From positions 62,001 to 126,000 of the forward strand of contig JAJTUQ010000003.1 of NCBI GenBank assembly GCA_021399445.1: 64,000 bases of DNA, written 5' to 3'. Under the pieces are notes generated by a model that ran no database searches, was not told the DNA's origin, and saw only the letters and a list, made by a program, of their open reading frames with translations. Both the position numbers and the translations under genes were made by a program. This DNA is from Xylogone sp. PMI_703. Its lineage: Eukaryota > Ascomycota > Leotiomycetes. Shown in pieces: positions 7,595 through 48,023 of the stretch (the stretch's first letter is position 1; every line of letters begins with the position of its first letter).

Positions 7595-10500
7595 TCAAAT
7601 TCCAAGCTCTGCGTTGGTCAAGAAATGTGAACCTCCCCCACAACGATAGCCTTCCCCCTCCTTAAACCATCTAAATCCCGCAGGGCAAATCCCCATATCT
7701 CTAATCTTCTTCTGGATCGCCCTTTCCTGCGCTTTCTTCCTCTCCGCCTCTTCTTTGGCCTTCCTTAATTCCTCCTCTGCCTCTCTTTTTGCTCGTAGAA
7801 CAGCCTCAATCCGTTGTTTCTCTTTCTGCAGCTCTTCTTCGATTTCTTGGCGCCGTTTTTTGTCTGCGATTCGCTTCTCTTCTGTCAATTTTTGAATTTC
7901 TTCGAGTATGGCTTCTTCGGCTTCTTCTTGGGCTTGGTATTTGTGCTGCTGGGCTCCAATGAAGGCCTGTTCGGCTTCTGCTAAAGCTTTCTCATCGGCA
8001 ACGCTCTTTTGTAGTTGTTGCCACACCTTGTCAGGCACTCCAGGGTCGCGTTGCGGTGGTGAACCTGCCGTATCTTCGGGATTTTGCTCCCCTGCAGCTA
8101 CATCCTCGATCTCAAGGATTGGGGCTGCGGTTTTTGTCTTCGATACGGTCGCTGATTTGTTTTGTGGAGCCTTTGGCGGATCCTGTGTCAAAGTAGGGCA
8201 TGGGCAAGGTTGAGGCTTATGGCCAGGGTTTAGAGAGTCTTTCCTGCTTTCGTTTCTGGCTTTGTGAGACTGAAGCATCTTATCCAGATTTCGTATAATA
8301 TCAGCAGCGTTCACTGCTAGATCGGAGGACTTCGAGCTTGCAAATGCTTCTGAGCAGATAGATTTGGCAATATTCTTTACGTCTCTGCCATTTCCCCAGG
8401 ATTGAAGTTTGGAGAGTTCTGTGAATATGTCTAGCATTCGCTGATATTCATTATGTGGTGCGCAGTGAATCAACGGCGTGATATCTATCTCCTCCGTTTT
8501 GATCTCTCGTTCTAAAAGTTCAAGGCATTTCTCTGGAGCCATGTTCTGGAAAACCACTTCTTCAGGGAAACGGCTGGAGAGACCAGGATTGAGACGCAAG
8601 AGCTCATCCATGTCTTCGGTGTAACCGGCAAGGATGACAACTATCTTTTCTATAAATTTCGGTTTTGTTAGACTATCAACGAGCTCGTTGACAGCTTCTC
8701 TGCCAAATCCACCGTCGCAAAAGCGGTACGCTTCATCCACGAAGAGAACTCTTCCTAAAGCTTCTGTTAGCTTTAGCTGAGTCTTCGGTCCAGTGTGGCC
8801 AACATATTGACCGATAAGATCGGACGCAGAGCATTCAACGTAATCGTTGGAACCCAGAATACCCATTTGGTAGTATAGTTGACTAATCTTACGTGCCACT
8901 GTCGTTTTTCCAGTTCCTAATCGAAAGTGGAATTAGCAAGCTACCTGCCTGTTAAGTCAGAGTTATTTCGTTACCTGAAGGCCCTTTGAAAAGGAAATTG
9001 AACGGAATCTGACGTCGGGGGTCTTTGTTGTGAGCCTTCATATTCTTGGCGATTCGCTGATACTTCTCAAGCTGGTCGATGAGTTTTTCACAACCAACAA
9101 TATCAGCGAATAAGTCTCTGCAGCTCACTTCGGACCCAGTGGTGCGGTCATATTCTTCATCGAAGTCTTGAGGAAGAAGCATAATCTCTGGATCAGAGCT
9201 GTCTGCTAAGGTAGCTGAAGTTCGCTTTTGTTCTAGCTCCTTGGCGCGTGATAGGATGTTCTCTACAGCCCCCGCATTGCCGAAATTGGGTCTATCTCGT
9301 TCACGGGCGAGAACCTCGATAGCAACTCCTTTGGCCTCGTCCGTTGCTTTCAAACCCTGTTGTTTGAGCTTAAGATCAAGAACGCGCATCAGATCCGAAT
9401 CGTTGAAGTCGTCAAAGTAGAACGCATCACTAAGTCGAAAACGCCTTGCAAGACCAGGATTTGAGTGATTCATCATGTCCTCCATCTGTTCTTTGTATCC
9501 CAACAGGAGAACACACAAATCTTCACCTGGGGTGCTTTGCACGTTGGCCACGATGGTGTCAATGACGGCAGTCTTATAAGGGTCCGGATTACCACCGCCA
9601 ACTCTGCCACCGGCATCAAGACCGTAGGCTTCGTCAATCACCAGCACTTTTCCGGTAGCAGCCTTCAAGATATTTTTCGTATTTTCTTCCGACTGTCCGA
9701 GGGCTCCTCCTACAAAATCAGAAGGATTCTTGATGACTACTGCACTCATGTTAGAATCAAAAAGACGGGTAATGATTACGGGGTACATATCTTCTCTTTT
9801 TGACAGCAGGCCTAGATCGGCCAATATTGAGCCATATAGCTTAGCAACAGTAGTCTTCCCTGTGCCAGGGGAACCAAGGAATACTCGATGAAGCGTACAA
9901 GCAAGCGGCTCAAGTTCTCTGAGTTCTCTTTGATAGTTACGTTGGATCATACCGACGAGGGCTTCCACGGAGTCCTTAACTCTCCCTAGTCCTATTAAGA
10001 ACTGCAGTTCTTTCCATGCACCACTTTCTTTTATCGCACCGCTTGGTTCGGGGCCGATGAGATCTTCTTTCGTGAATAGTAGATCATCCGGGCTATTTCC
10101 CGAGACTCTCTCGTTCCTCAACCGTGAAGCTTGGCGCTCTGTGACTAAGGCCCAGACATTCTCCAAGTCGCGCGCATTTCCATATCCCTCCGTCCCGCGT
10201 TTCCTTCCGAGACGCTTAACCACAATCCTTGCATATAATCCGTGTCTGCCGTCCTCGAGATGAGCTCGACCACCGTATTTTCGCTTGATCATGGAGTCAA
10301 ACATGATCAGTAGTTCTTGGTCTGAGTAGTCGGCAAAATTTAGTCTGTGAGGCATACGACTGTCGAATCCAGGGTTGTGTTCGAAGAACTTCTCCATTTC
10401 CTTGGTATAACCGGCAAAAATAAAACCAATGGTACCTCTTCGGTTTTCGATTTCCGCCAGGATAAAATCTAGGACATTTTTGCCTCCGAAGTTATTACCT

Positions 10501-13500
10501 GATGCAAGCTGATAGGCTTCATCAATGAAAACGACGCCACCCCCGGCTTTTATAAGACCTTCAATTATCTTCTTGGCGCCAGGTAAGCCCTCGTTTGCTA
10601 GCCCGGAACCTGTGATCTCGGCAAACTCCTTTCCAGGCAAAGCGCCGACGGAAGCCAGGAAGCGTGCATATATACGGGCTACTGTGGTTTTGCCTACAGA
10701 GAGTTAGAAGGAATATTGAAGGGTCTGCAGGGCAGTACCTGTGCCGGGATTCCCCAACATTACCATCCCCATCCTCTCCGTTTTCATGTCCACCCCTTGT
10801 CTTTCAACAGCCTCGATCTTTGCCTTAATTCTGAGAAATTTCTCTTTTACTGCATCTAGGCCGGTGAGCTTCATGAGATCATCAATAGCTGCATTAGATG
10901 CTCCTTCAACCCTCTTCTGCCTCTCCCATTCTAACTCGGAAGGACTTTTCTCGAGCGAAGTAGATTCTTGTGTGGCTGGGATTTTCTGGTTCTGTTGATC
11001 CGGGTGCTCAGATAGTTTAATCTTATCATCATTGGTTGGAGAATTCGGAATAGTAGCATCTCGTGCGTCTTCTGCGGCTTGTGCGGGTTGCATGGCTTGA
11101 GTAGTCTTGAGAGAGGCGTGTTGCAGAGCCTGTTCCGCTTGACGTTGTGCAGCTACCAAGTCCTGCTTTTTCTGTTCGAGATGCTGTGCCCTTTCCTTTG
11201 CCGTTTTCTTATCAGCAGCTTCGTCTCTGATCTTCCGTATTTGCATTTCAAGATCGTCGATCTCCATGTCATGCTTCACCTGAGCTTTCAATCTTCCGTC
11301 CTGAAGTTCTATCTCAGCTTCCAAGATTTTGTTGTCTCGTTCATCCTCAATCTCGCAGATTTTGCACCTCCATGGTTGAGACTGGTGACACTTGCGCTTC
11401 TGCACATGCCCATTCGAACATTTGATCTCGATGATTTTCTCACAGTCCATTTGGGAGTGATCGGAACGGTAGTGGCATCTTCGCGGGCATTTGTGTTTAC
11501 CACATCTTAAAAACGACCCGCTTCGCAGCACCAGTTAGCAAGAAGTCTTGATGCAACTCGGATACCTACCATGGTTCTTTACATCCACCATCAGGACATT
11601 CCTTGTCAAAGTCGTCCGGAGAACGTAGGATAGTAAGTCGTGTTGGATGCTGCTCGCACTTGACTGGGAGCCCATCATAGATATGCTTTTTAGCTTTGAG
11701 CATATCTATAAATCGATTCCACAACTCTCCACCCTTTTTGGAGGTCGTGAATGTCTCTGCATTACCGATAAGAATGAGGCCATCTCGGGCTCGCGAAAGA
11801 AGCACGTTGAGCCGTTCTGGAGAAGACATAAAGCCGATATCGCCATGATCGTTGCTTCTTGTTAGCGAGACTATAACAATCTCGCTCTCATCGCCCTGGA
11901 AATTGTCTGTAGCTCGTCAGCGCATTCGATCATCCGGATAAATAATTGACAATGTGATTATATGGATTAAATTTTATTCTGTCCTAAGACTTGTTGACTC
12001 ACCTATTGTAGATATACTAACCTTCGGTTTGTTGACCTGAGCAGTTGCCGCGGGCATCAAGCCAGCACGGACCAAGTCATGCGAGTCGAGATCGCTCAAA
12101 ACTGGATCATTATCTTTGCTTAGCTCTTCTCTCAGAAGATGAAGCTGGCCGAGGTAGGGGGTCAGGATGACAATCTTCTCCGTCGGTATCCTGAGGTCTT
12201 GTTGGCTAAGATAACGCAGACATTTCATTGCCATATGAACCTCAAATATATTCCTCTTTGTTAATGGAGTGGTACCATCTTTCCAGTCTCGTACGTTCTG
12301 CATTTCCTCTTCTCTATGGGGATGATTTAGGAAAATAACGTTGTCCTGGAGCCCTTTAATATTTTGTCTATTCTCCGTATTCTTGGCATCGACGAGGTTT
12401 GGATAAGTAAGTTGTCTCACATATTCAGCCAACTCAGGTCGCATGCGGTGTTGCTGATGTAGAGTGTGATGAGGGTATCCTTGTATCACGAGCCTTTCAA
12501 AGAGTGATCGATTCAAATCGTAGCCATCACCTTTCTCCACACTGAGGGCATAATTAGCCTTCGGTCGAAGCTGCTTGTGATCGCCTATTAGAACAAGCTG
12601 CTTCGTATGTGGGCCTAATGCTGTCAAAATGTGGCTTTCTAGAATTTCACCTGCTTCTTCCACGAGGACAGTTCCGGGACGAACTGAGTTTAGGCTTTGG
12701 ATATATTTTGCTGCGGCCGTGGTAGTGCAAGCAATGATACGCTTGGATCGGAGTACTGTGAGCTCTCTTTCCATGTATATAGACGCAATCTGCTCGATGT
12801 AGTCGTTGTACTTAGCACCCCATTGTTGAACTGCATCCAATATTTCCTTAAGGATCTCGGCTTTCCATGCCTCATACAGTTTTAATCGATCTGATGCCTT
12901 GATGTTCCATACTTCCGAATACTTGGCCATTTCCCCTCTGAAGGGTGTTGCATCTTTTCCGCGAATCCAGCGATCCAACAGGTAGAAATTATCCATGGCT
13001 TTGCCTTTCTTCCCTACCTTTTTCGTTCCATCATTCCCTGAGGGTACTTGAAAAGCTAGATGGAAAGGCGGGCCATCCGTCAAAAATTCCAAATGTTCAA
13101 GAATATCTTGTTTCGGGGGAGCCGCCTGCTCTAGGGTTGAGAAAGCACTTTCCAAACTTTTCGCTTCATCCTGGGCCTCTAATTTGGTCAAGTCAAGCAT
13201 GTTATATTGTTCTGGAGCAAGCTTTACTAGTGATGTAGCATCTTTCATCGAAAGGTCTCGAACAGATGGAGCCGCCTTCGACCCAAGACGAACGATATCA
13301 CTCCTTGGAGTGCCCATGCTTATGATATCGTCAAGAAATTGATCCAAAGCATGGTTCTTATATGATAAGATAAGAATCTGTTCGTCGGAGTGGCAATAAA
13401 ATGCTTTCGTAAGTAATGCACCAATAAATGATTTTCCTGTCCCTGCTAACTATTAGGGAGGATTCATCGAGTATTAGGAGTGGCCTACCTGGCGGCCCTT

Positions 13501-14950
13501 GAATTAGGCATAATCTTCTTTGAATTCCCGAGAGAAAGCATTCGGCTTGGGATTTGTCCAATCTAGTGGATTGGGGGAGTTTGAGAGCGTCCTGGATATC
13601 ATCAGAAGGATTGTGAAGCAATTTCTTTGCTAATTCTTCAATATCGGATGAAAATTTGCATTCTGGGGGCTTTAGCCTGGAACCCGCATGCCAACAAAGA
13701 ATTTCGTCCTCAAAGGGCAGTTCCCTGATCTCCTTCAGCTGCTTCAAGATAGGGGCGTAAGAGAACAAAGCAGTACTCAACTGCACCAATTTGATGTTCT
13801 TCGCCTTCCTTATCCGGCGCAATGCTCTTTCTGTGTTGGCTGCTGGTATTTGCAAACAAATCACAGGCGGCTGCTGTGCGAGAAGATCTTCCTCGCGAAC
13901 CAATGCACCTAGCGTGGTAACTTCCTCATCTGCAATTAGACAGGCTAGTGATCCATGCTTCAGATATTTTGGATTGTCCTTGAGGAACTGTTGCCGAACC
14001 ATTATGCTCTTCTTCGGCATCTGCGGGAGATCATTAGTGCACCGCAGCTGTAGAGCCCATGGACTTCGGCCATCGCAATGGACACCACTCATGGAGAGAT
14101 TCTCTACTGAAAATGCTTTTCGCCGTCCCCCCTGGATGTTCTGAACTATCTGTATTTCCTCCCTCATCTCGCGAACCACGTCTTCGCGGAGTAATCGGAA
14201 CTGGCCATCAATATGAGAAGCAAGCCCGTTAGGCTCTAACGCAAGCTTTTTCGTCTCGTGGGATCGTGGCAGGTAGGGATCTTTCGTAGTAAGCTCGTCC
14301 GCTGTTGGGATGATCTCAATTTTGCTAATTTCTCTAAAATCATTATCGTGACGCCCACCCGGTCCGTTCTGCCAATTTACATGTTCCGTATTCAAATTGT
14401 CAATTATATGTGTAATTCTTTGAGTCTGCAGACGAATCTCTCGTTGTGTAGAATTCAAAAGCCTGTTTTGGATCAAACTGTCCTGTGCTAATGGTACGAA
14501 TGTGATGGCCTTTTCTCTTGGTAGAGACACAAGTTGCAGTAGGATCCAGCAAAATGCTATTTCTCCATCTCCAACAAGCTCACCAGCTTTGAAAGCCGTT
14601 ACCAATGCATTCAGTAGGAGTTCTCCCTCTACAAACTGCAGTATCAGTTGCTGTAAGACTGCCCCACCACATAACGTCTTGAGCTCTGGCGCCGCAAGGT
14701 AACGAAGAACCTTAGTGACTGCTCCTTGGAGAAAAGAAATTTTGTCATCTGAACTGAGGGCTGTCTGGAACGCAGCACGCCCGTGTTTGCTCCCGTGTAT
14801 TCGTTGTATACAGGTTGTCTTGTTATCTTGGGCGCAAATCGCCTCAAGAAACAACTTGGCATTCTTGCTGTCAATAAGCTTCTCGCCGCTGAGCACACTT
14901 ATAAAGAGAGTCCGAAGCTGTATACTTCGAGGTGTTCTGTGGCTTGACAT
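7595..14950 (-). CDS. ZNFX1-like SF1 helicase / NFX1 zinc finger / triple CbxX AAA+ protein
   Basis: I join six exons: 14950-13489, 13442-12003, 11906-11570, 11520-10739, 10693-8975 and 8916-7595. The five introns are 46, 96, 49, 45 and 58 nt, with GT-AG ends; the total is 2353 codons plus TGA, in frame throughout. Residues 1-480 are a helical region I do not recognise. The SF1 (UPF1-like) helicase has GPPGTGKS at 485-492, VEEAGE near 746, GDHKQL near 772, HQQHRMRPE near 813, DNFQGDESE near 969 and LNVLLSRAR near 998. An NFX1-type Cys/His cluster follows (CGKHKCPRRCHY, about 1080-1130), then a coiled coil (1136-1225). Three CbxX/CfqX AAA+ modules have Walker A at 1335, 1612 and 1910 and Walker B VVFIDEAYQ, VLVIDEAYG and VLFVDEAYR. 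A charged coiled coil (about 2210-2320) and a Cys-containing tail end it. Relatives of the helicase half (animal ZNFX1, fission-yeast Hrr1) act in RNA silencing; the AAA half is functionally obscure. Argonaute lies just upstream on the same strand. Confidence 0.9.
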
Positions 14951-15939
14951 ATTGATGATGGTAGGGATTAGTGAAGCTGAACTGTGTAAGCATACCAAAG
15001 GTGAGAAATGAGATCACCTTTTATTCTAAGACAAGTGAATGATAGCGGGATGAGATGGTGGTGTGACTAGCCCCGCAGTGGGAGGCCTCAGGGCGGGTTC
15101 ATTGGTGCTAATGGCCTTCCAACAAAATGCTGTTATTTATCGTAGAATTCTTTATCTTAATAAGTACAAGTGCAAAATCAGACAAATCATAACCCTTCTA
15201 TAGTTGGCTATGCGCATGCCTGCAGTTTCACGATTAGCCAGCGAGTTTCAACCTAGAGTTGGATGATGTTGAGGTTTAGCAATGGGCGCAGGGAAACGCA
15301 GGGATGATATAGAGCCACTGAATTGCTTGGAATCTATGGCTACAATAGGTGCTATATATACAGTAGACTTACGGCTGTACAATAGATACGGCCATATAGG
15401 TCCGTAGAATACTGATAGTTACCTACAATAAGCCTTAGATACAAGCCCTAATAACCTGTATATGGCAGAGACGTATCCTCCGAATATTGCACCAGATAAG
15501 TCTTCGAGAATAATAATGGGAATCCCAAAGAAGGATCTATACTAATAATACATTTTTCAGTCACTAAATGAAACGGTCTTTACATTGGCAAGAATTACCC
15601 TGTCTACTCACAGCTAGTCTTCCATGAATATGTTTTCGATATATCGTAAGTCACTATTGACCATCAAGCTGATTCTTATCGAGCTTCTCCGGTGTCTTTT
15701 TGATGTGAGCTGGGCCTGCAAGGAGTTTATAGTATCAACACTCATCAATACTCATCGACAGAGAAGAATATAATCTATTCCACATATAGATAGCTATCAT
15801 TGCCTTAATGATGGAAAATAGCCCAGGGCTAAGGGATAAATGTCAACGCCGGCCTACCGCTATCATCATGAAAAGTCCCCTTCTAGTACATTACCTCCTT
15901 GGACGCAGGAGACGAGATATCTACTAAAAGAACGACTGC
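14951..15939. other. Intergenic between Argonaute and the helicase gene
   Basis: About 990 bases hold the 3' end of Argonaute and the promoter of the helicase/AAA gene, both on the minus strand. I see no additional gene and no clear TATA box or terminator. Confidence 0.6.
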
Positions 15940-18900
15940 TTAAATGTAAAACATGGTATTTTTCACATTAGGATGTATTGTGACCCTGCTGGCATCTGGC
16001 GCTTGAGACGGTGCTGTACCCACCGAGCTCACATCAGGACTAGAAAGTGGTGAAGGATCAAATAATCCGCTTAGATAACATCGCGCTCTTGCACAGACCA
16101 GATTAGCGTAGTATGCGGGCGGACAGAGACTCACAGCCTTAGTTGCCCTCCCGAAGAGGTAACAGAGGTTGTGTGTTAGATCCTCGAGAGCATCCGCGGC
16201 GGTGGGAAATTGCGGCTGGAGGGTGAGGTTGCGGAAAATCTCGTCATAGACAACATAATAGTGGGCTGGTCGAGCAGTGCCTTGGATCGCGGTATGCGCT
16301 TGGAGAAAGAAATCCCAGTTGCGCGCTTCTGTGACGCCACGGTCGACAATCGTGCCGTTGGGCAGATTCCCGCCGCGATCCACGTCTTCCACCTTCGTAG
16401 GATAAAAGCGCGTGTTATGGCGCTTTCCGACGATGATAATCGTCATGCGTGGCTTGTCAGCCTTCGTCAACGCCGCTGGATATACCTCTTTGCAGGCCTC
16501 GCGGAGAGCCGGGAGCTCCTGCTCGAGGACAATGTTGTATTGACCTTCAGACACCCCGTCTCGGTACACGAGAATGTTTTCGGGCAACGTCTTGTTCTTC
16601 TGTTGCCAAAGGAGAAGTCGCGACTTGAAGATCACATCAAGGTCAGCGACCATTTCCTGGCGAGGGGGTTGTATTCGAATATCGGCCGGCCATTGCCCAA
16701 GCCATTCATCAACGGAGGCAACGATCCCGGCAACACTTGGGGCATTCGATGAGGAACCGGGAGCCGGATGGGTCACGTCGATTCCAACGACCATGGTAGT
16801 CTTATGCCGAAGAAATCCTAGCTTCGATGGGTCAAGAGAATGATTTCTGCCACCTAACTTCAAATTAAACTTCAGACAGACGTTGGCCATATACTGTGGG
16901 TTCCCCCTGGCGAATTTTGAATCCAAAACACACACGTTGAGAATGCCTTCTTTGACATCGCAGATGAATTTGACGTGGTTATAGACTGCAGTCATCTCTC
17001 GCTCGGGGATTATCACTAGAACGAGCTTTGGTTTTCTCGGATTGACTACGAACCTGTGAATCCAGTGGCCAATTTGAGATTCCAGGTCTTGGGGGTTGGA
17101 TGCGATGTGAACTCCCGGCATGTAATTGTTGACAGAAACCCCAAGTTCTCTGAGTTTAGTTTGGAGCTCATCCAGCTTCCCAAGGAAATCTTGATCAGAT
17201 TGCCAAATATTGCGAGCGCCTTGCAGAGAAATTCGCAGATAGGTCCATCCAGGCAAGTCAGATTTGGTGACGAACTTCGACGTACGCATGTCCCAGCCTC
17301 CAAACCTAGGAGTTATCATCTGAGTTCCGGAATATTTGATTGTTGGAACACTTAATACTCGACCCGGGACAGTTATTAATTTGGGCGTTACGGTAATATC
17401 GAAGGCATCCTGCATGAACATCAGCTTCTGTTTAGCCAAGAGAGGATTTACACATACCAATGTCGGGTTCGTTGGCTCAAATCCTAGCAGGCCACCGCCG
17501 GAAGCAACAATTGAATGAGCATTTTGAAATGGCCGTCGTACAGCAAAACGAATCATCTGTTGTGTTTGTGCAGCGCTCAGCTTCGTACGCGCGGGCTGCC
17601 CAGGTGTGACCACGCAGACCTCAGCCGGTAAATACGATGGATTGTCTTTTGTAGAAACGTTAATGACAGGAAGTGAAGGGTCCTGGATGGTGATGTTATA
17701 TGCTAAGAAAGCTCAGTCTTGCAGTCGAACTTGGGTGGAGATTGAAAACTTACTCTGCTTGAAGAAATCAAAAACACTGATGTAGCTCCCCTGAGACGGG
17801 GGAGCTGGCCCAGCCATAGGGGGCTTCTTACCCTTCTTCTTCTTTCCCCCTGCTTGAGGCGCGGGTTGAGTTGGAGAAGCACTCTGGGAATTATGTAGAA
17901 AAAACTTCACTTCCCCTGCGCCAGCTCCGAATTGTGGCACAATTGGCGGATGAGATAGATTGCGGCCATCATCTTTGGTAGCGAAACCTTGTACTATCTT
18001 CATTCTATGGATGCGCTGGCCCTGCTTATTCCTTCGCACAATGTGCGTCGCATCAATGGAGAGCTTCTTCACAAATTTCAATAAATTGACCTTGTTGGGG
18101 CCATTTTGCGACATGAAGGCTTGCATGAGCCTATCGAGCGGCCCATCCTCGAAGAAGGCCATATTTTTGACTTGCACGTTGACGAGGATTCGAGCCGTCG
18201 CAGCCCGAACACTCATGAAAAAGCCTCGGATCACCTGCAATCCGCCTCCCAGATTCCCTCTATCCTGGGTTCCCGGGTTCAGGTGGAAATGCCGACTAGT
18301 AGCAACCGTCGCTATCATTGAAGCCGCTTTTGGATGATGTCCCACTACGATATTCAAGGCTTGAATAATTTCCTCTTTGGAACCAAACATCAACCCAGCT
18401 TGTGATGATGTCAAATGATTGATCAGCTCGGCCACAGTAAGAGAGCCGGTGAATTGAAGTCGAAGTCGATTCTGCGTGGCATTTGGGGCAGGATCATCCT
18501 CATCTTCTGCGCGGTAGGTGACGAGGTACTCGTCTTCCAGTTCGAGCTCACTCCGAGAAATCAAGTTTGACTTGAAATCAGTAGCGATTTCGTATCCACG
18601 GGGCAGCAAATGTTCTTCCAAGAGAAGCTGTACAATCCTCTTCGCTTTCTTCCCTACCGGGGCTTTCCCTCTGTTGTCCGATGCGATACTAATGCCGTAG
18701 CGATACAACTCCAAATCATCTTTAGAAGCGAGCTTGAAATAGTTCGCCCATACCAGAATTTCCCTTCCTGTCACCCCATATCCTGGCCTGGGTGGGTTTG
18801 TAATCTGGCCGGGCTTCTTTTTCTTCACGTCAATCGCGGTATTATTTTCGATTTGGGTGACGTGCTGATCCGGGCTGGGAAGCCGCCCATCGCCTTGTCT

Positions 18901-19142
18901 GTGATAAGAAGCGGATATTAGTCGTCTGAGATGCTCGGATATCAAGGAAGACCGAGGCGTGAGACTTGCCTGTAGACCTCAACCTCAGGCGGGGGTCTGC
19001 CACCCCTGCCCCACCCACCGCGAAAAGCTCCACGACCCCCTGGGCCTCCTGGACCTCCTGCTCCACGTCCCCGAGGGTGAAAAGGTAGTGATTGATCTCC
19101 ACGGCCTCGACCGCGACCCGGATAAGATGAAGATCCAGACAT
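15940..19142 (-). CDS. Argonaute (QDE-2/AGO type)
   Basis: Three exons, 19142-18970, 18898-17754 and 17702-15940, give 1026 residues plus stop. Intron 1 (71 nt) is GC-AG, with CAG|GCAAGT at the donor; intron 2 (51 nt) is GT-AG. The N-terminus is Arg-Gly rich (residues 1-50), as in many eukaryotic Argonautes. ArgoL1 is seen as GGGLQVIRGFFMSVR. PAZ covers about 320-475 and ends NPSYLPAEVC; it carries a basic/proline insert near 390-425 (GGKKKKGKKPP). PIWI has GIDVTHP (Asp near 743), RQEMVADLD (Glu finger), YRDGVSEGQ and RPAHYYVVYDE (His near 919). The DEDH tetrad is therefore intact and slicing should be possible. The protein should load small RNAs for quelling-type post-transcriptional silencing. 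The hydrophobic C-terminus TMFYI resembles the conserved MYFI/MYFA Argonaute ending. A helicase with ZNFX1-like architecture follows about 1 kb downstream. Confidence 0.95.
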
Positions 19143-25991: not shown

Positions 25992-26809
25992 GAAAGGGAA
26001 TATACATCAGTCAATGACTGTGGGATGGGTGACTGCGATTTGCAGTGTTGTCGGACGCAAGTACAGCGAGATCGCAGACAGAGTATCTAGATTCGGTGTA
26101 ATACGTTAAGCAGTCATTTTTGTTAGAGTATCGTTTCTGTTGGTGTATCGTATCTAAGACTTTATGTCAGGCTAGGCTATCTTGATGAAAGAAGAGACGA
26201 TTGTGTAAATGAACTGTATGAGTCTATAAGTTCGTTACCTTAACGATTAATTACGTCGAAAGCTTTTACTAGTGTACTAACCTTGTTAAATCTATTTGAT
26301 GCTTGTTTATCAGACCATTTGTCATTATGTATCTTTCATATACATTGACGTGTTAACAATATCAAGAGAGAGCTATACTTTTTAGTTATTATTATATAGT
26401 TGATATTATAATTATATTCTTCTTTAATAATACTATCAGAAGTTAAACTGAAATAACTAAGCTTAAGTTAAGTTATTATTAACAAATATTATTATCAATA
26501 ATAATCGTTATTACTTTTTTGTTATTCTGTCTTCTTATTAATAACTATAACGAATAAACAACCGAATCATACGACAAGACTTCTTGGTCTTCTCATAATA
26601 AGAACAAAGAATTATCTCTAGCCTAAATTTGTTAATAAAATTTCTTAAATAAACCTTTTCCTAAAACTTCTTTGATCTTTTCTTCTTAACTTTAACTTTA
26701 ACCTTAAAGACAAATCTTTTTAAGAACATAATAATAAAAAAGAAAGAAGGAACTAGTTTTCCCGAAATAAATTCTAGTTAAATTATAAGCCTTAGGACAA
26801 CGTTAATTT

Positions 26810-27359
26810 AAGAAGGGGATAATGTCATAACTTAAGGTTAATAACCAAGTTTATCAGTAAAATTATATTAACGCAAGCCGGCATAAACTTTATAACAATA
26901 AAACAAAAGACAACAATAAAAACATTGATAAAAGCAATCATAATTAGTCATGCTTTACTGAAATAAATAAACTGATTAAATAAGACTAATAAAAAAGCAT
27001 TAGTAAAATTTTACTATCAGAATCTTGTTATTAGATTCTAGCTAACAGAAATCTCCTAGACAACTAAATCACATAATAAACCTTAAGACCTTAAGGATCC
27101 AAGGGTTTATAAAGAAGACCTTAGGACTCTCAAGGTCTAAAGGTTCAACAAGACAACATACTCATTATATAAATAAATAGTTTTACAGTAAATAAAAGCT
27201 TTGTACTTAACTTAATTAATTTACAGTATACTTACATTTTATAATAAAGTTCTATAATCTAAGTTTCATTTACTCTCTTAACTTCTCAAGCCTATTATCT
27301 GAGTAATAACTAAATCCTAATGTAAGAACATTATAAAGTAATAACACGAGGTTATAACA
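26810..27359 (+). mobile_element. Polypurine tract and 3' LTR of a truncated Gypsy-type element
   Basis: A purine run AAGAAGGGGATAA (26810-26822) directly precedes TGTCATAAC. About 537 bases later the sequence ends GTTATAACA at 27359. The two ends are inverted with one mismatch, as expected for LTR termini TG...CA. The frame entering the LTR reads EGDNVIT, resembling the C-terminal end of fungal Gypsy pol proteins from memory. I find no partner LTR in the window, so the element is truncated. Confidence 0.45.
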
Positions 27360-29655
27360 AACATAAAGAATAATTATAGTCAAGAAAATAATAAAGAAAA
27401 TACAAAAAGAAAAAGTTAAACATTAAGTTAAAAATACATTAAATATATAAAACAACTTAAACCTTAAAAGTATATATAACTTACTACTGAATTTTGAAGT
27501 CTTTATATAAAGAGAAAGAAAAGAAAACAATAAAGAAAACTAAGAAAATCCTTATAACCTTATTAATACAGACAATAATATCTGTATACTAAAACTCTTA
27601 TATAATAATATATTTTTAGGTTAATTTCAGTAAAACCATTTCTTAAGCTATAAAATAAAATAAAAAAAATCGAATTATTAAACCCAAAAATACTAAAAAA
27701 ATAACTAACTAAAGAAAACAAACTAACTAACGAATAACCAAAAAGTAAAACGTTCTAAAACATAAAACCTTTAACATTTATATTACAATAATTAATAAAA
27801 CAAGAACAAAGAAAGTTATAAAAATATTTAATTAATATAAAATAATTAAATATAAAAGTATTTTTACAGAAAATCGATAAAAACCAAGAGATTATTAATA
27901 TATATATATTCTTACAAAATGACAAAGACTTTACTTAATACACAGAATTACAACAAATAAAAATGACAAACCTTATACAAAAAAGAGTTTTCCGAAAAGT
28001 AAAGATTAAAAATATTCTTAAAGATATATAAATCTTTAATATAAAGTTCATCGATAAGATTAAACATAAAGAAACAAAGAAACAAAGAAAGTATACTTAA
28101 AGTCAAGACTTATAATTCAAATATATAAAAATAAAGAAAAAAGTTCAATATTAATATAATCTCTAATAATATAATATACTAATTAATATCTTATCTTATA
28201 TATAATAATTATTTATAAAAATAAAGTCAAAGTATTCTTGTATAATATTATACAAGCTTATATATAATATTTAACATTCTTAAGACAACTTTTTTATATA
28301 TAAAAATCTTACGAACTAATTATATAATTAAGTTTAACAAAAGATAAAATACTATAAATAATCTGACCATTATACAGAGTTCTTGAAGCCAGAAATCATT
28401 AGTATAACATATATTATAATTATCATATTATTCAACTTAATATAAAACCTTTACATATAACCTATGCTTATTATATAACAATAAACCATAAAAAATTATA
28501 AGACTACAAACAAACGATATACTATTCATGGAAAATACTCAGTTTACCTAAAAAGAGCAAAAAGAGCTCAAAAAGACAAAATTTATAACAAAGAACAAAG
28601 AAATATTAATCTAAGAAACCTTAATCAAGTTCAACAATAATATAATATAACTATAAGATAACGGATTAAAACTTACTTAAGCTTATCAACATATTAATAT
28701 ATAACTTATAAATAAAAAACTAATATATTATATATAAAACAAAAAGAATATAAATTATATTATATTATTAACTGAAAACTATTTATGACTTGTTAGTAAT
28801 AATTTAAACCAAAAAACTAATAATAAAAAATATTAAGAACTTAAATTAGTACTTAAAATAACAAATAAAGAACTTTAAACGAAAATTATAGTATATTGAA
28901 CTAAATAAGAAAACCTTATAATTATTTATTTTTTTTAATACTTTTTTCATAAATAATAAAGACATAAACTTTTAAATAAATTATATATTAATTTTGGCCA
29001 ATATAAATAATAACAATAATATTATATATTAGTTTTTTATAAAATGTAAAAAAATTATATATAACATATTAACTTCTAAACTTTATACAATAATAAACAG
29101 GTTTAATATAAAGACATTAATAAAAATAATTATTGACAAGATTATAAAAAATAATATATTATTAATTTTATACATTAACTTAAAATTTTTATTTAATTAT
29201 TTTATTAAATTAAACATTACTTAAAAAAAAAGTTTATGATTAATGTTATATATCTCTAGAAGATATACAAAAGATATAATATTATAGAAGTTAAATAAAT
29301 AAAAGAGAACATAAATCTAGTAAATGTTATAATAAAAAGAAAATCATTAAATACCTTGAAATAATTAATTAAGATTAACAGAATATAGTTAAATATATTA
29401 AAATAAATAAAAAAGAATAATAGAATTATAGAAAGTAATATAAAAGTTAATATTAAAGATAATACAGAAATTAATATTAGAGAGATAAAATCTTAGGTCA
29501 TAAGAAAGACTAAGCTTTAATAAATAATTAATATATAATCTAAGTTCTTGATTTTTATTATGTTTTTGAATAATTTAGTTATTTTCAGAATTAACCTAAT
29601 GTTAATAATTATATGATTATATACAAAAGTTACTTTTTCAGTAATATGTATATTA
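27360..29655. other. A+T-rich stretch without assignable content
   Basis: Heavily mutated, purine-skewed on the plus strand, with frequent stops in all frames. It could be an older retroelement that the chromovirus entered at TATTA, but I cannot place any domain. Confidence 0.5.
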
Positions 29656-30036
29656 TGTTATGGATTATGTAACCTGGAACATGTGAACTAGCCTATGTGG
29701 GCCTGAGGTTCAGTATTCGAGGGTAATACATAGAGAACCCAGAGACGAAGGTTACATGGGATCCTGAGGATTTAGGGATTTAACAGATCTAGGACTATAG
29801 ATCAGGGGATCCTGGGGATCTAAGGATTTAATAGTATTTTATATAGTATATAAACTTAGATAGTTCTTAAGATAAAAGTTTTGTGTTTAACTTATAATAT
29901 AGATTATTATCCATATAATTGTAATTATGATTATATACTAAATTACACTAATCTCTGAGTTTTTATTAATTTCTTTATGACTTAATATATATCTGTATAT
30001 TCTATAGGACTTAGGTAGAAGCTTAGGTTTGTAATA
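29656..30036 (+). repeat. 5' LTR of the chromovirus
   Basis: 381 bp, TGTTA...TAATA. It differs from the 3' copy only by transitions in the parts I compared (for example GTTATGG against GTTACAG). Confidence 0.92.
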
Positions 30037-30099
30037 CTTTGAGTATTATTTTAGAGAGATTAAGATTAAGTGTTTCAAGATATTATGACAAGTTAGTAA

Positions 30100-33000
30100 G
30101 TAAGCCTTATGTCAGGAGTGAAGTAAATAGTACCAGGCTTTATACTAGGACTTATGTTAGTGTTAAACTTATTTTTATCGGATAATAATAATGATGAAGA
30201 ATGAGAATTTTTACTAATTATTTTATTACTTAAATTATTTAAAGTAATAATATTAACTAAGTTTAATGAAGATAGATCTAAGTATAAAGGCTTTAAGATA
30301 TAAGTTTGTCTGTTCTTAAAGTTTAACGAATTTATGTTCAGGATAAGATAAGATTATGTATTCTGGGTTATTTTGTACTTAGAAAGAGAAGTTTTTAAAC
30401 TTTTATTATTATATATAAAGAACTTTTATAATATTATCGGAAAGAAAAAAGACAGATAGTAGGAAACAACAAATTTACTTAGAAGTTTGGATAACTTCTG
30501 GAATAAGATAGATTAGTTGTTTGATAACTTTAACGAGAAATAAGAAACTTTTAGATAGTTAGACAAATTAAAGTAATCAGGATTAGTGTAAAATTATAAT
30601 TTAAAGTTTAATATGTTAATCTTTTAAGTAAGATAAAATAATGAGGTCTTAATGTACTGTTATAAGGAGAGTTTTAAAAATACAGTAATGGACGAAATAA
30701 TGTGGCTGAGGTTAACCTTAGAAAGTTTGCAGGAACTTATGAAAAAAGTTGTTGAGATAAATGATTATTAGTAGAAGAGACGTTAGATAAAAAGGGGAAG
30801 AGTAACTGGTTAAAACATTAAAAAGTGAGACTTCGAAGAAAAAAACAAAAAATCTAAGAAAAACTCTGATATTATAGATTAGGAGGTAAATGTAATCTTC
30901 AAAAAAGATCCCAAGAAAGGAGGAAAGTATAATTTAATACTAAAATAATGGAAAAAATATAGAAAAAAGAATTTGTGTTTTAAATATTATTTACTAGGAT
31001 ATATGGTTCATGAGTATAACAAGGATAGTAAACTCAAAGGTAAGTAAGTTAATAATGCAGAAGAAATGAAGCAAAGGCTTGAGTATAAAGAAAAGGGTAA
31101 GAAAGTAGTATTCGCGGAAGTTAATATGGTTACTCCGGAAGATATAGAAATTATAGAACAGGAGTTTGTATAAGTCAGAGTAAAGTCCAAAATAAAAGAT
31201 AAATAATATATAGTATGATTAGTATTATCTAGCTTGGAGATTTGGCCAGAAGATAACAAAGACTTATTAATATGTTAAATTCTGTATAAATATTCTGTTT
31301 ATAAAACGGAAGAAAAGGCTTTTGTTGAGAATGACTTGGGTGAATAGAAGGGCAACGATTCGGAGATGTATGATAATGCTCCGACAGAAAGGACTAAACT
31401 TTAACTTATTAATATATTAAACTTCAAGGAAATATTCTTTAGAGTATGGATTGAAGAAGATTTAGTTATAGACTATAAAGAAATTCTAGTTTTAGAACTT
31501 ATCAAGAAAGTATTTGGATAAGAGTAAATGTCAAAAGTATTAGCAAAAGTATTAAGAGATATCGTCTGGGATATACTAGAAAAAATAAAGGATTAGTTCG
31601 AAATATTAGGAAAACTTAATTCCGAGGAAGCCCAGAAAGAATCAGCAGAACCAAGTCTCAGTTTAACTAGGAAAAGTAAGAAACCGGAATCAGTGTTAAT
31701 GACTAAAGAATCATATAGGCTGTAGAAGATTAATGAGTATATTAGAACTCCGGAAGTGAGTAAGAGGGTGATATTCAGAAACATCAGAAAGAAATTAGAC
31801 AGTTAGTACTAAATATAGTCTATAGTAAAACAATAACAAGAATAGATAAAGTTATATTCAGCTAAGAACAAGATTATAGACTTTGGAATAATCATAAAGG
31901 TCATGTTTAAATCTTATTATTACTTGAGTCTGAACCTGTTATAATTAGGAGTAATGTACATTATTATATTATTAGCCATGGAAATACTGATATAGAAGAA
32001 CTTTCCGGATATCTGGACAGTATAAATAAAGACAGAGCTTGAGATTATATAGACTAAAGTTATACTTGATGAAGAGGAATATTATCATGAATAATGTATG
32101 TTGTGTTAAGGTTATAGGATAAGAAGATAATATAAATTTAATGAGATAATTAACTTATAGCATAAAGATAATGATAAAGAAGAATATGTTAAGATTAATA
32201 TAATTTTCGGAAGTTCTTTTTTAATGATACTTATTAAATTAAAAAAGTAAAGTTTAACGATGATATTTGATAATAGTAATACGATTAATTTTATTATGTC
32301 TGGGGTAATCTTCAGATTGGGACTGAATACTAGGGTTAAGAAGGGGAAAGGTTATTTTATCAAAATGGTAGACAGATTGAGTATTTCTTCTTGAGTAGAA
32401 TTGGAGACTGAGTTGTTAATGATGGAGATATCAGGAGAAACGATGGAAATTATGTTTGATGTGTTATACTTAGGGAGATATGAAATAATCATAAGAATGT
32501 TATGGTTCAAAAAATATAACTCATAGATAGACTAGGAAGTGGGCTAAATAGTAAGGTTCGGTAAGGGAAGGGATTTATGACTAGCTGACTTGTTAGTATA
32601 AGTTAATAATGTTGAAATAATATTAATATTACTGGCGGAATATTAGGGATACTAGAAATTGTTCGAAGAATTACTAGATATAGAAGTGTTATTATTAAGG
32701 AAACCCTGGGATTATCATATATGATTAAAGGAAGGAGTTAACTTATTATACTGTTGATTGTATGCGATGAATAAAGAGTAATGATAGGTTTTGTGAGAAG
32801 AACTGGATTGGTTGTTAGTAAAGGGACATATTAGACTTTCTGAAGTATCTTGCAGGGCATTAGTAATGTATGTACTAAAGAAAGGACCAAAGAAATGGCG
32901 AATGGTCATGGATTACCGAGGATTAAACGATATTATTATTAAGGATTAATATTTGATATTGTTTATATTGGATCTTTAAGAAAGATTAGTAGATACTAAG

Positions 33001-35580
33001 TATTTTATGAAGTTAGACTTTTGGACAAAATTTTATTTAATTAAAATTATGAAAAATGACGAATAAAAAACGGTATTTGGAATATGTTATAGACTGTTCG
33101 AATATTTAGTTTTATTAATGGGATTTACTAATTTATCTGTGATATTCTAAAGAATAGTAAATTATATACTTGTGTTATATTTGGATATGTTTGTTATAGT
33201 ATACATCAATGATTTACTAATATATTTTAAGATATTAGAAGAATATTGAGAGTATGTAAAAAAGGTTTTATGAATTTTGTTAAATAATGATATGTGATAT
33301 TAATCATGGAAGTGTTTGTTTTATCAGACAGAAGTCAAATTCTTAAGATATATAATGTTAGGAGAAGGATTTTGAATAGACTTACAAAAAGTGGTTAATA
33401 TTAAAGGATGGCTTAAATCAAAAAATGTCAGGGATATTTAGGTATTCAAAGGAATATATAACTTTTACAGGAAGTATATCTATAAATTCTCGGACATTGT
33501 AATATTATTAAATAACTTAACCAAGAAAGACTAAGAATTTAAGTTTAGAAGTAAAGAATAAAAAGTGTGGCAGAAACTCAAGGACTAATTTGATGAAGGA
33601 ATAATTTTGGCGATATTTTAAGTAGGATTATTAATGAGAATTGAAGTAGATATATCGAACGAGGTATTAAGAATAGTTTTAAGTTAGTTGTATTTTAATG
33701 TAAAATAAAGAGTAATAGTTTTTTATTCAAGAAAGTTTATTCTGGCAAAGAGAAATTATAACATTTATGATAAAGAATTATTAGTTATCGTAGATGTATT
33801 TAAAACTTAAAGGATATATTTTTTAGGATTAGAAGTAGAAGTATTTATGAATTATTATAATCTAAAATATTTTATTAGTATTAAGATCTTAAATGTTAGA
33901 TAAGTTAGATGGTCAGAAGAATTTATATAGTATAACTTCAAAATAAAGTATATCAAAGGAATTGAAAATGTTAAAGTAGATATGTTTAGTAAAAGACTGG
34001 ATTATATGGAAAAGGTAGAACTAGAGGTTAAGACTATCTTTAAAGAAGAAGAAGACGGAATTTTGGTATATAATTATTTAGCCTAGAAAACTGAAGATTA
34101 GGAGTTTGACGTAGAATGGACAAGAAAGATAATTAAGGTTATCAAACATAAAGTCAAGGAAGTTAAAACATTATTCTAGGAACTAAATCAAAACAATAAA
34201 TGGGAAGAATTTATCGAAGAGTTAGGAATGTGGTTTTGTAACAAAAGAATTTATATATTATAATTTTTAGTCAAGAAGTTTGTTAAATATATGTATAACT
34301 TATTATTGTATAGGCATTAAGGAATTAACAAGATATATGAATTTTTTAGTCTGGAATTCTATATACTTAAGTTATGAAAGATGATATGGGAAGTTATTAA
34401 AGTATGTGATATATGTTATAGAACAAAACTAATATAAAGAATTGTGTACAGATTATTATAACTGTTAGAAGTACTGGAAGGATTATGGGAGTTAATAGTA
34501 ATGGATTTTATAGTAGACTTATTATTGTTATTGGGCGTGGATAACGAGGTCTACGACGGAGTATTAGTAGTCATGGACAGGCTAACTAAATATGAAGTCT
34601 TTATACCATAGAAAGGTACTTATACAGTAGAATAGTTAATGGATGTACTTATGAACAGAGTGTTTGTAATATTTAGGTTTCTAAAAGAAATTATTTCTGA
34701 CAGAGATAAGTTATTTGTTTTAAAGTTTTGGTAAGTACTTATTATTATGATAAAGACTAAAACTAAGATAGTCACTAAAGGATAGGCTTAAACTGATGGA
34801 GGTACTGAAAGACTGATTTAGATGTTTAAGTAATATTTTAGGGTATATGTTAATTATTTATAAGATAATTAAGTTAAGTTGTTATTAATAATATAATATG
34901 TATACAATGGAATAAAGTATAATAATATACAAATATTATTGTATTATATAAACTTTAGAAAAGAAATGAATATAATATATTTGTAGAAAAAGATATTTAA
35001 TATAATAATAATAGTAGAAGAAAGAGTTAAGTTCATTAAAGAAATATAGGTAGTCATATAACAGAACTTAAAGGAAGTTAAAGAAAAAATGAGAAAATAT
35101 TATGATAAATAATATAGAATAGAACTTATGTTTAAGAAAAAGGATAAAGTATACTTTTTATGAAAATTTATCAAAACTAAAAGATTAAATAAATTATTAG
35201 ACTTTAAGAAAATAAGATTACTGAAAATTAACAAAACATTAGGATAAGTAATATATAAACTAAAATTACTTAAAAATACTAAAATATATTTAATATTTTA
35301 CGTTATTATACTAAAATTAGTATTACCAGAAACGTTAGTAATTATGTACTTAGAAGCAGAAAATCTTAACCCAGAAAAGGAATACAAAGTAGAAAGTATA
35401 GAAGGACAAAGGATCTTCAGAAAAAAGGTTTAGTATTTGATCAAATAGAAAGAATACCCAAAATCAGAAAATACCTAAGAATTAGCGGAAGAACTCAGGA
35501 ATGCTCAACAGAAGGTTCGGGAGTTTGAGGTCAGACACATCAAGCTAGATTGTCTAACATTAGGTCGCCAGAGTAAATCT
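30100..35580 (+). pseudogene. gag-pol remnant of the chromovirus
   Basis: The gag zinc knuckle lies at 30976-31017, with its spacing intact but three ligands changed to Tyr. A protease-like segment lies near 32260-32310 (NTINFI followed by RLGLN). Reverse transcriptase is seen at about 32890-33240: MVMDYRGLND, MKLDFW, VYINDLLIYF (the YxDD motif reads YIND). RNase H follows at about 33640-33990 (FYSRKF, YDKELL) and integrase at about 34240-34900 (VMDFIVDLL, VVMDRLTKY, ISDRDKLF). A C-terminal chromodomain lies at about 35380-35480 (VESIEGQRIFRKKV, stop, YLIK, EYPKSENT, stop, ELAEELR), where the stops sit at expected Gln and Trp positions. Many TAA/TAG codons make it non-functional. Confidence 0.85.
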
Positions 35581-36082
35581 GGTTAGAAGTCCTAAGGAGG
35601 TCGTCAATCTGGGAACTCAAGAAGATAGGGTTGTCCGAAGAAGTTATGATTATATGGTCAGAAGCTTCTTGTTCGGCGTACTCTTTCTCCTTTGTAGTAT
35701 TTAACTTATCCAAGGACTTTAGGCTATGACGGATTATCTTTTGGGTATGTTTCTGTAAGAACTTTTGTTGCTTCTCGAGACGAGCCAGACGAGTCATGTT
35801 CTCGGCCAAAATCTGTGTGGTTCTTTTCTTTTCTGTCTTTAGCTGATTGTGCTTGTGACTATACGACTCCCAAGAAGAAATCGGGATGTTCTCGTCGTTG
35901 TACGTCAAACCTCGGGTGGTATACTTGTTGTAACGAGTTGACTTCTTTATTATCTTGTAGGTTAACTTGTTTTTTTCATAAAAGGAATAAAGTATTATCT
36001 TAAAACTTAAGTTATTTATATAGTTTTTTAAGTTTTTTTTTTCTTGGACTTTTTGTGTTTTTTTCTTTTTAGGTATAGTCAT
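35540..36082 (-). CDS. Antisense open frame inside the chromovirus, unknown protein
   Basis: An ATG at 36082 opens 180 codons running against pol and ending at 35540, where it overlaps the last codons of pol tail-to-tail. The protein starts very basic (MTIPKKKKTQ). It has a predicted helical middle rich in Gln, Lys and Leu (LARLEKQQKFLQKHTQK) and an acidic tail. It keeps many CAA and CAG codons and one Trp, unlike pol beside it, and its central 400 bases look richer in G+C than the rest of the element. I recognise no family. It may be an accessory gene of this element lineage or a spared chance frame. Confidence 0.4.
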   Translation of the reverse strand: MTIPKKKKTQKVQEKKNLKNYINNLSFKIILYSFYEKNKLTYKIIKKSTRYNKYTTRGLTYNDENIPISSWESYSHKHNQLKTEKKRTTQILAENMTRLARLEKQQKFLQKHTQKIIRHSLKSLDKLNTTKEKEYAEQEASDHIIITSSDNPIFLSSQIDDLLRTSNQIYSGDLMLDNLA

Positions 36083-36202
36083 AGGATCGGAATGTGAATG
36101 TTTTGGTGGTATGATGAGAAAGAAAAGAAGTTTACTAGATAACGAAGATGTTTATTATTTAGTTAAAGGTTTCAAGACAAAGTTAAGCCAGGAAAGGAAT
36201 AG

Positions 36203-36583
36203 TGTTACAGATTGTGTAACCTGGAACACATGAACTAGTTTGTGTGGGCCTGAGGCTTGGTATTCGAGGGTAATACATAGAGAACCCAGAGACGAAGGTT
36301 ACGTGGGATTCTGAGGATCTGGGGATCTAACAGATCTAGGACTATAGATCAGGAGATCCTAGGGATTTAAGGATTTAACAGTATTTTATATAGTATATAA
36401 ACTCAGATAGTTTTTAGGATAGGAGTTTTGTGTTTAACTTATAATATAGATTATTACTTATATAATTATAGTTATAATTATATACTAAATTGTACTGATC
36501 CTCGAGTTCTTATTAACCTTTTTATGATTTAGTATATACTTGTATACTTTATAGGACCTAGGTAGAGGCTTAGGTTCGTAACA
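36203..36583 (+). repeat. 3' LTR of the chromovirus
   Basis: 381 bp, TGTTA...TAACA, followed by the target duplication TATTA. It keeps the canonical CA end that the 5' copy has lost. Confidence 0.92.
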
Positions 36584-37076
36584 TATTAATCTTAAATAAA
36601 TAACTATAACGAAAGTAAAAAGAAGTATATATATTCTTTCCTTTATTATTACTTTAATATATTATTTAATTATTAATCACTATATTAATATGTACATATA
36701 ATATATAATATATTATCGGTGGTAAGATATAGTTATATAAAGAAATAATAACTTATTTTTATTTTTTATTTTATAATATAAACAAAGATATAATAATTTA
36801 TATTTATTTTTTACTTTTTAAGCCAAAAATTCTAGCTTTAACCTATAAGTTAACCTAGCTTTTCTTTGTATAATAACTAGAGGAAAATATTTAATTTATA
36901 ATTATCAAAATAATTATTTTTGTTCTTTTATACTTTAAGTTCTTAGACTACTTTAATATAAAAGATTTTGAGTATTATATAAATATATAAACTATAAATA
37001 TAATAATGATAAGTTAATTTTTCACTTCTGTATAACATGAGGTTATCTTAAATTTTTAGTTATAATTAAAACTACA

Positions 37077-38142
37077 TTATCTGTTTACGATAGTCCTTCC
37101 GTTAAGATATAAAACCTGACTACTCATGAAACTATTATCTTTGCTTGTTAAGAAGACATAACAAGTGATAATCTCGTTCGGTTGACTTGGTCGTCTTATT
37201 AGATTCGATGATCTAAACTTACTGAGTGACTCTTCGTCTATAGAACTAACAGCCAGTGGAGTCCAGACAGCACTTGGGACAACTGCATTCACGCGGATTC
37301 CTTTTCCTGCTTGTTGATTTGAGAGTGCCCGAGTAAATGCTACAATTGCACCTTCGGAGGAAATATAGTCCAGTGCTGGCCCAGTGCCCACATACGCATC
37401 CACCGAGGCGGTGTTGATAATTGTGTCACTGGATTTCAAATGTGGCAGCGCGTATTTGGCTAGAAAGAAGTAGGCATGGATATTGATGTTAAAGGTGTTC
37501 ATCCATTAGTCCCTGAGACGACAAAAATTAACAACAGGGCCCTAATACTAACATCAACCAGTACTTACTCGTTAATATCAACAATGTCTTTCTTAGTTAT
37601 TTGATAACCAGCATTATTTACCAAAATATTCAATCCGCCGAGTGCATCCACAGACTTTTGCACAAGATCCTTACAGTTATTTGCATGTGTCAAGTCCGTT
37701 TGAAAAAGATGTATGTGACCTCCATTCTTCTCAACCTGGGACTTTGTGTGTTGTGCGTCGTCCTCCTCGGCTGGTAAGTAAGCAATAGCAATGCTGGCAC
37801 CTTCCATAGCAAACAAGATTGCAATGGCTCGTCCGATACCAGAATCTCCTCCTGTAATGAGAGCCTTCTTACCAGCAAGCTTTCCAGCTGGTTTATAGAG
37901 CTCGTATCCCTCGTCCTCGGTGGGGAGATGGGTCTTGGTGGGCTTCGGATCCATATGCTTTTCTAGACCAGGATGCTCTTGTTGTTGGGTTGTGGCTGAT
38001 AATCTTCGAATATAATAAAATCAGCTACTCGCAAGGAAAAGAGGGTTCGGGGATTACTCTTACCTGTAGCAAACTGGGACTGGGACTGGGACTCTGACCC
38101 GCGTTGTGTAACATTTTGCACCGTCTCCTTAATGGATTCCAT
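37077..38142 (-). pseudogene. Short-chain dehydrogenase/reductase with in-frame stop and lost catalytic Lys
   Basis: Exons 38142-38064, 37995-37569 and 37512-37077 are joined by 68- and 56-nt GT-AG introns, giving 313 codons. The Ser/Gln N-terminus (ESQSQSQ) and the MDPKPTKTHLP linker match the fungal and bacterial SDR group with an N-terminal extension. The NAD(P) motif is ALITGGDSGIGRAIA, then NNAGYQ. The second codon wholly within exon 3 is TAA (37508-37506), just before WMNTFNINIHAYFF; family members have Gln-Trp here, so CAA-to-TAA is likely. The active-site Tyr is kept in LDYISSEGA, but the YxxxK Lys is Glu. Both lesions predict an inactive product. It lies at the edge of the RIP block and is divergent from the opsin-related gene. 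Confidence 0.8.
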
Positions 38143-47789: not shown

Positions 47790-48023
47790 TGTTAGGGGAT
47801 GGGCATCCTGGGGTGGTCGACAGCGAATCACAGGCAAGACGAAGGGTGTACGCAGGTATCTCTCATGCATTCCACAAACTAAATCTTGTCCCTTACATCG
47901 TTAAGCTTAAGCTTTACTTTATACTGTACAATAGTCACGTAAATATCTTAAGCAAGGTCTCTTCGCTGGGGCTGCATTCCCCCCTGGTAGGCATAACACC
48001 CCCTTTACACCTAGCCCTTAACA
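47790..48023 (-). repeat. LTR (3' copy) of the nested Gypsy element
   Basis: 234 bp. It retains more C and G than its partner: GGGGATGGGCATCC here against AGGGATAGGCATCC at 55863. A 102-codon open frame starting inside it is not a gene. Confidence 0.9.

Follow-up and report, generated by a model that had tools for sequence, protein, structure and literature searches.

An Argonaute gene and a ZNFX1-like helicase/CbbX fusion gene linked in Xylogone and other ascomycetes: a candidate two-gene RNA-silencing module

An Argonaute gene of Xylogone sp. PMI_703, a member of the Leotiomycetes, was found to lie directly upstream of a gene for a giant ZNFX1-like helicase fused to three CbbX-type AAA+ modules. 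The linkage of the two genes is well supported, since both were found on the same contig in eight of the 14 other species in which both proteins are among the matches listed. The pair is probably a two-gene module, conserved though patchy in its distribution, that belongs to a specialised branch of RNA silencing, and we infer from it a joint function of the Argonaute and the helicase.

The gene pair and its proteins

The window, which is the whole stretch of 64,000 nucleotides analysed, corresponds to C19:62001-126000, where C19 is a contig of 8,055,043 bases in an assembly of 50.1 Mb and 25 contigs. The features of the pair, in window coordinates, are as follows.

15940..19142, minus strand: Argonaute gene, exons 19142-18970, 18898-17754, 17702-17458 and 17409-15940, 1010 aa (spliced model, Pfam and public protein)
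16102..16104, minus strand: codon of the fourth catalytic-tetrad residue, Asn, giving DEDN (Argonaute alignment)
14951..15939: intergenic stretch of 989 bp, with the Argonaute gene upstream and both genes in the same direction (gene models)
7595..14950, minus strand: gene for the ZNFX1-like helicase fused to three CbbX-type AAA+ modules, exons 14950-13489, 13442-12003, 11906-11570, 11520-10739, 10693-8975 and 8916-7595, 2353 aa
11570..14950, minus strand: ZNFX1-like part, exons 1-3, with the N-terminal region and the SF1 helicase core (AAA_11, AAA_12; aa about 240-1060) (alignment with 9q9z and Pfam)
11358..11581, minus strand: single NFX1-type Cys/His finger region, aa about 1076-1134, with the intron 11521-11569 inside it (aligned with the ZNFX1 finger region)
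7595..10905, minus strand: three CbbX/SpoVK-type AAA+ modules, followed by a tail that is charged as judged by eye, with the terminal conserved motif MGxC..G..W....GYRC.GG.H

The spliced models of both genes are open from start to stop and hold no internal stop. The helicase gene consists of six exons and five GT-AG introns, four of 45-58 bp and one of 96 bp, and the Argonaute gene of four exons and three introns, one of which is GC-AG. The helicase model matches the public Xylogone sp. PMI_703 protein with 100% identity over 2353 aa, and the Argonaute model is 99% identical to its public counterpart, a 995-aa model. The first-pass annotation had described an intact Argonaute and a giant helicase in tandem on one strand, about 1 kb apart, and this description was confirmed by the two open minus-strand genes and the gap between them. 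Three of the five helicase introns (13443-13488, 10694-10738 and 8917-8974) interrupt P-loop codons, namely those of the helicase and of the first and third AAA modules.

The same annotation had called almost every other gene in the window broken, which proved too strong among the window genes checked. Two amine-oxidase pieces are separated by an apparent GT-AG intron (by eye), and a Fungal_trans_2 gene has an open frame of 417 aa; the stop in the tannase/feruloyl esterase gene (59736-61331) is real, and lies in frame at 60465-60467. RIP-like dinucleotide bias occurs only in AT-rich blocks, which lie at about 26-38 kb and 48-58 kb of the window. These blocks fit a transposon-rich setting, without showing that transposons are the target of the pair. 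Over much of their length the blocks (26000-38000 and 48000-58000) also have a strong GC skew. A telomere-proximal position of the pair, which lies about 70-81 kb from the start of C19, was considered but not borne out, as a single TTAGGG was found in the first 2 kb of the contig.

Searches of solved structures revealed that the best sequence match of the helicase is a ZNFX1 chain (9q9z, E 2e-81), followed by CbbX (E 1e-34) and UPF1 (E 3e-30). The alignment with 9q9z covers aa 241-547 and, as a separate stretch, aa 657-1134, where it runs through the NFX1-type finger region. Homology to ZNFX1 thus extends beyond the generic SF1 core, as it covers the N-terminal region, the core and the finger region with ZNFX1 ranked over UPF1; at the control UPF1 locus of the same genome, UPF1 was the first solved match. 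Pfam zf-NF-X1 was not found among the 25 of 37 families listed, and one aligned Cys/His region is present. Most of the finger Cys/His positions are conserved in an alignment of 120 relatives (the best 120 of 1606), in which the Walker and helicase motifs examined and the terminal tail motif are also kept.

The Pfam families of the helicase comprise AAA_11, AAA_12, three AAA and three AAA_lid_6 stretches, with the AAA and lid families above the Pfam cut-offs, so that each of the three modules is of CbbX/SpoVK type with a CbbX-type lid. Three stretches matched each of the NCBIfam equivalogs SpoVK and CbbX, at scores under the respective cut-offs (418.9 vs 422.95 bits and 344.2 vs 459.25 bits); judged by sequence, the modules are relatives of CbbX/SpoVK and not the equivalog. 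The family counts 1606 proteins at E 0.001 or better, many of whose 120 listed members we take to be basidiomycetes, and the fused architecture itself, as read from these relatives, is a widespread fungal type and not new. The earlier description of a ZNFX1-like helicase fused to AAA+ modules is therefore sound as to the ZNFX1 homology and the three AAA modules, with the correction that the protein belongs to the widespread CbbX-fused fungal type, not to plain ZNFX1 or Hrr1. No study of the fused architecture was found in the openly accessible literature searched. One full-length fungal-type helicase/CbbX protein is recorded under the insect Bemisia tabaci (P0027), perhaps through contamination or transfer.

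The Argonaute carries the complete eukaryotic domain set of ArgoN, ArgoL1, PAZ, ArgoL2 and Piwi (Pfam), and its closest solved chain is Neurospora QDE-2 (2yhb). Among the 120 Argonautes aligned (the best 120 of 281, that of the window included), 114 have the tetrad DEDD, one DEDH, one DEDQ, and three are gapped; DEDN is found in the window protein alone. Published accounts differ on the residues allowed at the fourth position, which, in the available text of each paper, are given as D/H/K (PMC6299218), H/D (PMC12477606) or D/H/N (PMC11968273). Given the DEDN tetrad and this disagreement about N, slicing by the window Argonaute is possible and unproven, and its activity may be weak. What had been termed an intact slicer-type Argonaute is thus intact in its open gene and complete domains, whereas the slicer label is weakened by DEDN, set against DEDD in 114 of 120. 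An Argonaute model of Pochonia chlamydosporia (P0160, 1505 aa) has a C-terminal nucleoside-phosphorylase domain (aa 1031-1305), which represents either a real fusion or two merged gene models.

Linkage in other species and the history of the pair

Linkage was assessed by comparing contig sizes by eye between 120 helicases (of 1606 matches) and 120 Argonautes (of 281 matches), and two proteins were assigned to the same contig when the contig size was identical to the base. Fourteen species besides Xylogone have comparable records in both listings; Fonsecaea multimorphosa was left out of the count because its two records are apparently from different strains, and most of the 1606 family matches are not testable for Argonaute linkage. 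The eight linked species are Nemania abortiva, Nemania sp. FL0031, Xylaria sp. FL0933, Xylaria longipes, Monosporascus CRB-8-3, an assembly labelled Lasiodiplodia mahajangana, Talaromyces proteolyticus and Macrophomina phaseolina. The two genes are on different contigs in the other six (Monosporascus mg162, Xylaria venustula, Geoglossum simile, Onygenales PD_40, Xylographa opegraphella and X. soralifera). Consecutive locus tags demonstrate adjacency in three species: Xylaria longipes (CHU98_g4418/g4419), Monosporascus CRB-8-3 (DL769_002400/002401) and 'Lasiodiplodia mahajangana' (O1611_g1297/g1296). The remaining five share a contig, of 88 kb to 1.6 Mb, which need not mean adjacency and is weak evidence on the largest contigs, because C19 of Xylogone itself holds two further helicases megabases away from the window Argonaute, a second CbbX-fused one at about 4.5 Mb and a plain ZNFX1-like one.

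Lack of conserved adjacency in any relative had been named beforehand as evidence against the idea, and the shared contigs and the three pairs of consecutive tags did not bear it out. Chance adjacency, confined to the Xylogone genome, is extremely improbable. Under uniform placement, the probability that at least one of three Argonautes lies no more than 1 kb from any of six ZNFX1-class genes is about 0.004, which is not negligible after a choice among many windows, but the explanation is contradicted by the same-contig linkage in eight other species and the consecutive tags in three of them. The linked species belong to the Sordariomycetes (Xylaria, Nemania, Monosporascus), the Eurotiomycetes (Talaromyces) and the Dothideomycetes (Macrophomina), which together with the Leotiomycetes of Xylogone makes four ascomycete classes. 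The sequence from 'Lasiodiplodia mahajangana' is up to 90% identical to those of Nemania and clusters with them, in conflict with its label, and the assembly is therefore probably mislabelled. No published report of an Argonaute/ZNFX1-CbbX gene pair was found in the titles and abstract openings listed by searches of the openly accessible literature.

Phylogenetic analysis placed the window-type helicases in one clade of 23 rows (100% SH-aLRT), and the Argonautes around that of the window in one clade of 26 rows (100% SH-aLRT), which includes species without known linkage. Macrophomina, although linked, is outside both clades. Linkage was found in seven of nine species within the helicase clade (66% identity or more), and in one of the five testable species outside it. 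The two unlinked species within the clade are Monosporascus mg162, whose helicase is on a 13-kb contig, and Xylaria venustula, whose listed Argonaute groups with a second Ustulina paralogue. For 13 of the 23 helicases of the clade, no Argonaute of the same species is among the matches listed; the gene may be absent, poorly modelled or hidden by the clustering at 90%. Across nine linked species, the pairwise identities of the helicases are correlated with those of the Argonautes (r 0.87, with none of 5000 permutations of this full set as high); without Macrophomina r is 0.60. Shared species history alone could be the source of part of this correlated divergence.

The helicase tree conflicts with taxonomy. 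A single clade of Zopfia and Periconia, both Dothideomycetes, was rejected (p-AU 5.6e-6), and a single clade of the rows counted as Xylariales was rejected more weakly (p 0.016, AU test), in tests whose groups were picked after the first tree had been viewed and which drew a long-branch warning from the program. Horizontal transfer would be a fair reading of these conflicts, with hidden paralogy or contamination as the alternatives. The conflict over Zopfia and Periconia also suggests that a segment may pass from one lineage to another with both genes as passive passengers, and this bears on a somewhat unlikely explanation, in which the genes are frozen or hitch-hiking neighbours that, once side by side, stayed together through inheritance or transfer while having no function in common. 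Such passive carriage is consistent with the single linked species among the five outside the helicase clade, but it is opposed by the linkage of Macrophomina, which holds at about 57% helicase identity, and by the retention of both genes across four classes.

Patchy distribution and gene-tree conflict are also what would be expected of cargo of a mobile element, such as a Starship. The pair would then travel within a selfish element able to manipulate silencing in its host, and might work for that element, an explanation that is highly unlikely. DUF3723 is a common Starship cargo domain, and a weak DUF3723-like fragment (43925-44455) as well as the RIP-marked AT-rich blocks were found in the window. 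The DUF3723 match is nevertheless under the Pfam cut-off, and none of the 15 matches to the captain family DUF3435 found in the genome, a count that is a lower bound, is on C19, so that a Starship with a captain nearby was rejected.

Silencing loci elsewhere in the Xylogone genome

Four Argonaute-like loci were found in the genome, three of which have an uninterrupted Piwi frame, together with three RdRP loci and two paired RNase III (Dicer-type) loci. Six ZNFX1-class helicase loci were counted, five of them (window, C1, C21, C12 and C19:1.67 Mb) by best solved match and the sixth (C19:4.57 Mb) by 52% identity to the window protein, while other AAA_12 loci were set aside on lower scores alone.

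A second Argonaute, at C1:8268155-8281742, is convergent with a ZNFX1-like helicase gene (public model of 1356 aa) 6.5 kb away; the interval contains a glycosidase piece and a transcription-factor-like piece. The window and C1 Argonautes are 56% identical, and that of the window is in a separate paralogue clade. This second neighbourhood of a ZNFX1-class gene and an Argonaute in the same genome, which uses different paralogues, argues against hitch-hiking as the source of the window pair. Identity to the C1 helicase does not exceed 54% for any other helicase listed, so conservation of the C1 neighbourhood was not found, and in Melanomma, Geoglossum umbratile and Seirophora villosa, three species noticed in both listings, the helicase and the Argonaute are on different contigs.

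The third Argonaute (C20:2004313-2013141) is beside, and divergent from, a Dicer with two RNase III domains and a Dicer-dimer domain, the domain-bearing frames being about 2.2 kb apart. The fourth locus (C1:1311939-1313018) is divergent, and consists of pieces about 23-33% identical to the window Argonaute, in several short frames and without RIP-like bias; it is equally possible that it is a broken gene or a divergent, intron-rich one. No ZNFX1-class, RdRP or RNase III match was found within 100 kb of it. A second linked copy at this locus (C1:1.31 Mb) was considered and rejected, as no helicase piece matched there, and a CbbX-type AAA protein about 51 kb off lacks a helicase part.

Under uniform placement, two Argonautes fall within 7 kb of a ZNFX1-class gene with P about 1.8e-5 (of three Argonautes) or 3.3e-5 (of four), and three Argonautes near a ZNFX1-class, Dicer or RdRP gene were obtained in none of 2 million draws, with three or four Argonautes; these probabilities are guides only, because the gene classes and the distance were chosen after the data had been seen. 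The first-pass suggestion that linkage points to a shared function is partly supported, by the linkage in eight of 14 species and by the second Argonaute/ZNFX1-class neighbourhood, and is tempered by the six of 14 species in which the genes are on different contigs.

A putative mechanism and its relation to known systems

If the pair is a silencing module, as we favour, a siRNA-loaded Argonaute would mark target transcripts, and the ZNFX1-like helicase would engage the marked transcripts and hold them in an open state in which an RNA-dependent RNA polymerase can copy them, thereby amplifying silencing. CbbX is a remodeller of Rubisco. By analogy, the AAA+ trio might thread or remodel a protein partner, either the Argonaute or a protein on the target RNA, by which the complex would be released or recycled. 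Mycoviruses or transposons would be the most likely targets, at a guess from the patchy distribution of the pair and the roles of its relatives.

Those relatives have been linked to silencing in several systems. The available part of one paper implicates both the Argonaute WAGO-4 and ZNFX-1 in RNAi inheritance, ties ZNFX1-type helicases to immunity in mammals and inherited silencing in worms, and describes Hrr1, termed a ZNFX-1 orthologue, as working with an RdRP (PMC9276528). Neurospora SAD-3 was proposed, in the portion of the text available, to clear template structure for the RdRP SAD-1 (PMC10411587). Mucor RnhA, according to the accessible text, is essential for RNAi epimutation and has a minor role in exogenously triggered RNAi (PMC5384783), the latter suggesting that a member of this helicase class can be dispensable for core silencing.

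Compared with ZNFX1, its best solved relative by sequence, and C. elegans ZNFX-1, the window helicase has the same SF1 core and N-terminal region and an aligned, putative NFX1-type finger region, but it has one finger region, no RZ finger among the Pfam matches listed, and three CbbX-type AAA+ modules with a conserved tail motif fused on. Hrr1 of fission yeast, SAD-3 and RnhA are fungal helicases of the same class with genetic roles in RNAi, as far as the available texts describe them (PMC5384783, PMC10411587), whereas their lengths of 999, 1160 and 1231 aa leave no room for an AAA+ fusion; Xylogone has five other ZNFX1-class loci, besides the window gene, to set beside them. Other fungal helicases with the CbbX fusion, which bear the annotation 'P-loop NTPase', 'NFX1-type zinc finger-containing protein 1' or 'CbxX/CfxQ family', are about 2300 aa long with the same domain list and occur in ascomycetes and basidiomycetes among the 120 listed, but Argonaute linkage is testable in few of them. 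QDE-2-type fungal Argonautes share the domain order of the window Argonaute, which differs from them in its separate paralogue clade and in the Asn of its tetrad.

Prokaryotic Argonaute operons also link an Argonaute gene to a helper gene, according to the part of the source available (PMC6299218), whereas the Xylogone pair is eukaryotic and consists of separate genes, 989 bp apart, so that the likeness is one of analogy only. A bolder proposal builds on it, in which the pair would be a horizontally moving RNA-silencing island of fungi. The Argonaute and its dedicated ZNFX1-CbbX motor helicase would form a self-contained defence branch, combining marking with AAA+-driven remodelling, that passes from one ascomycete class to another much as Argonaute operons spread among prokaryotes, and the AAA+ trio would be a new kind of silencing-complex remodeller. 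We regard this proposal as doubtful.

For the more modest reading of a conserved two-gene module, the retention of the pair across ascomycete classes provides a genetic handle on the cooperation of a ZNFX1-type helicase with an Argonaute. The linkage suggests a function for a large family of fungal proteins, and puts the question of whether the AAA+ trio acts on Argonaute complexes.
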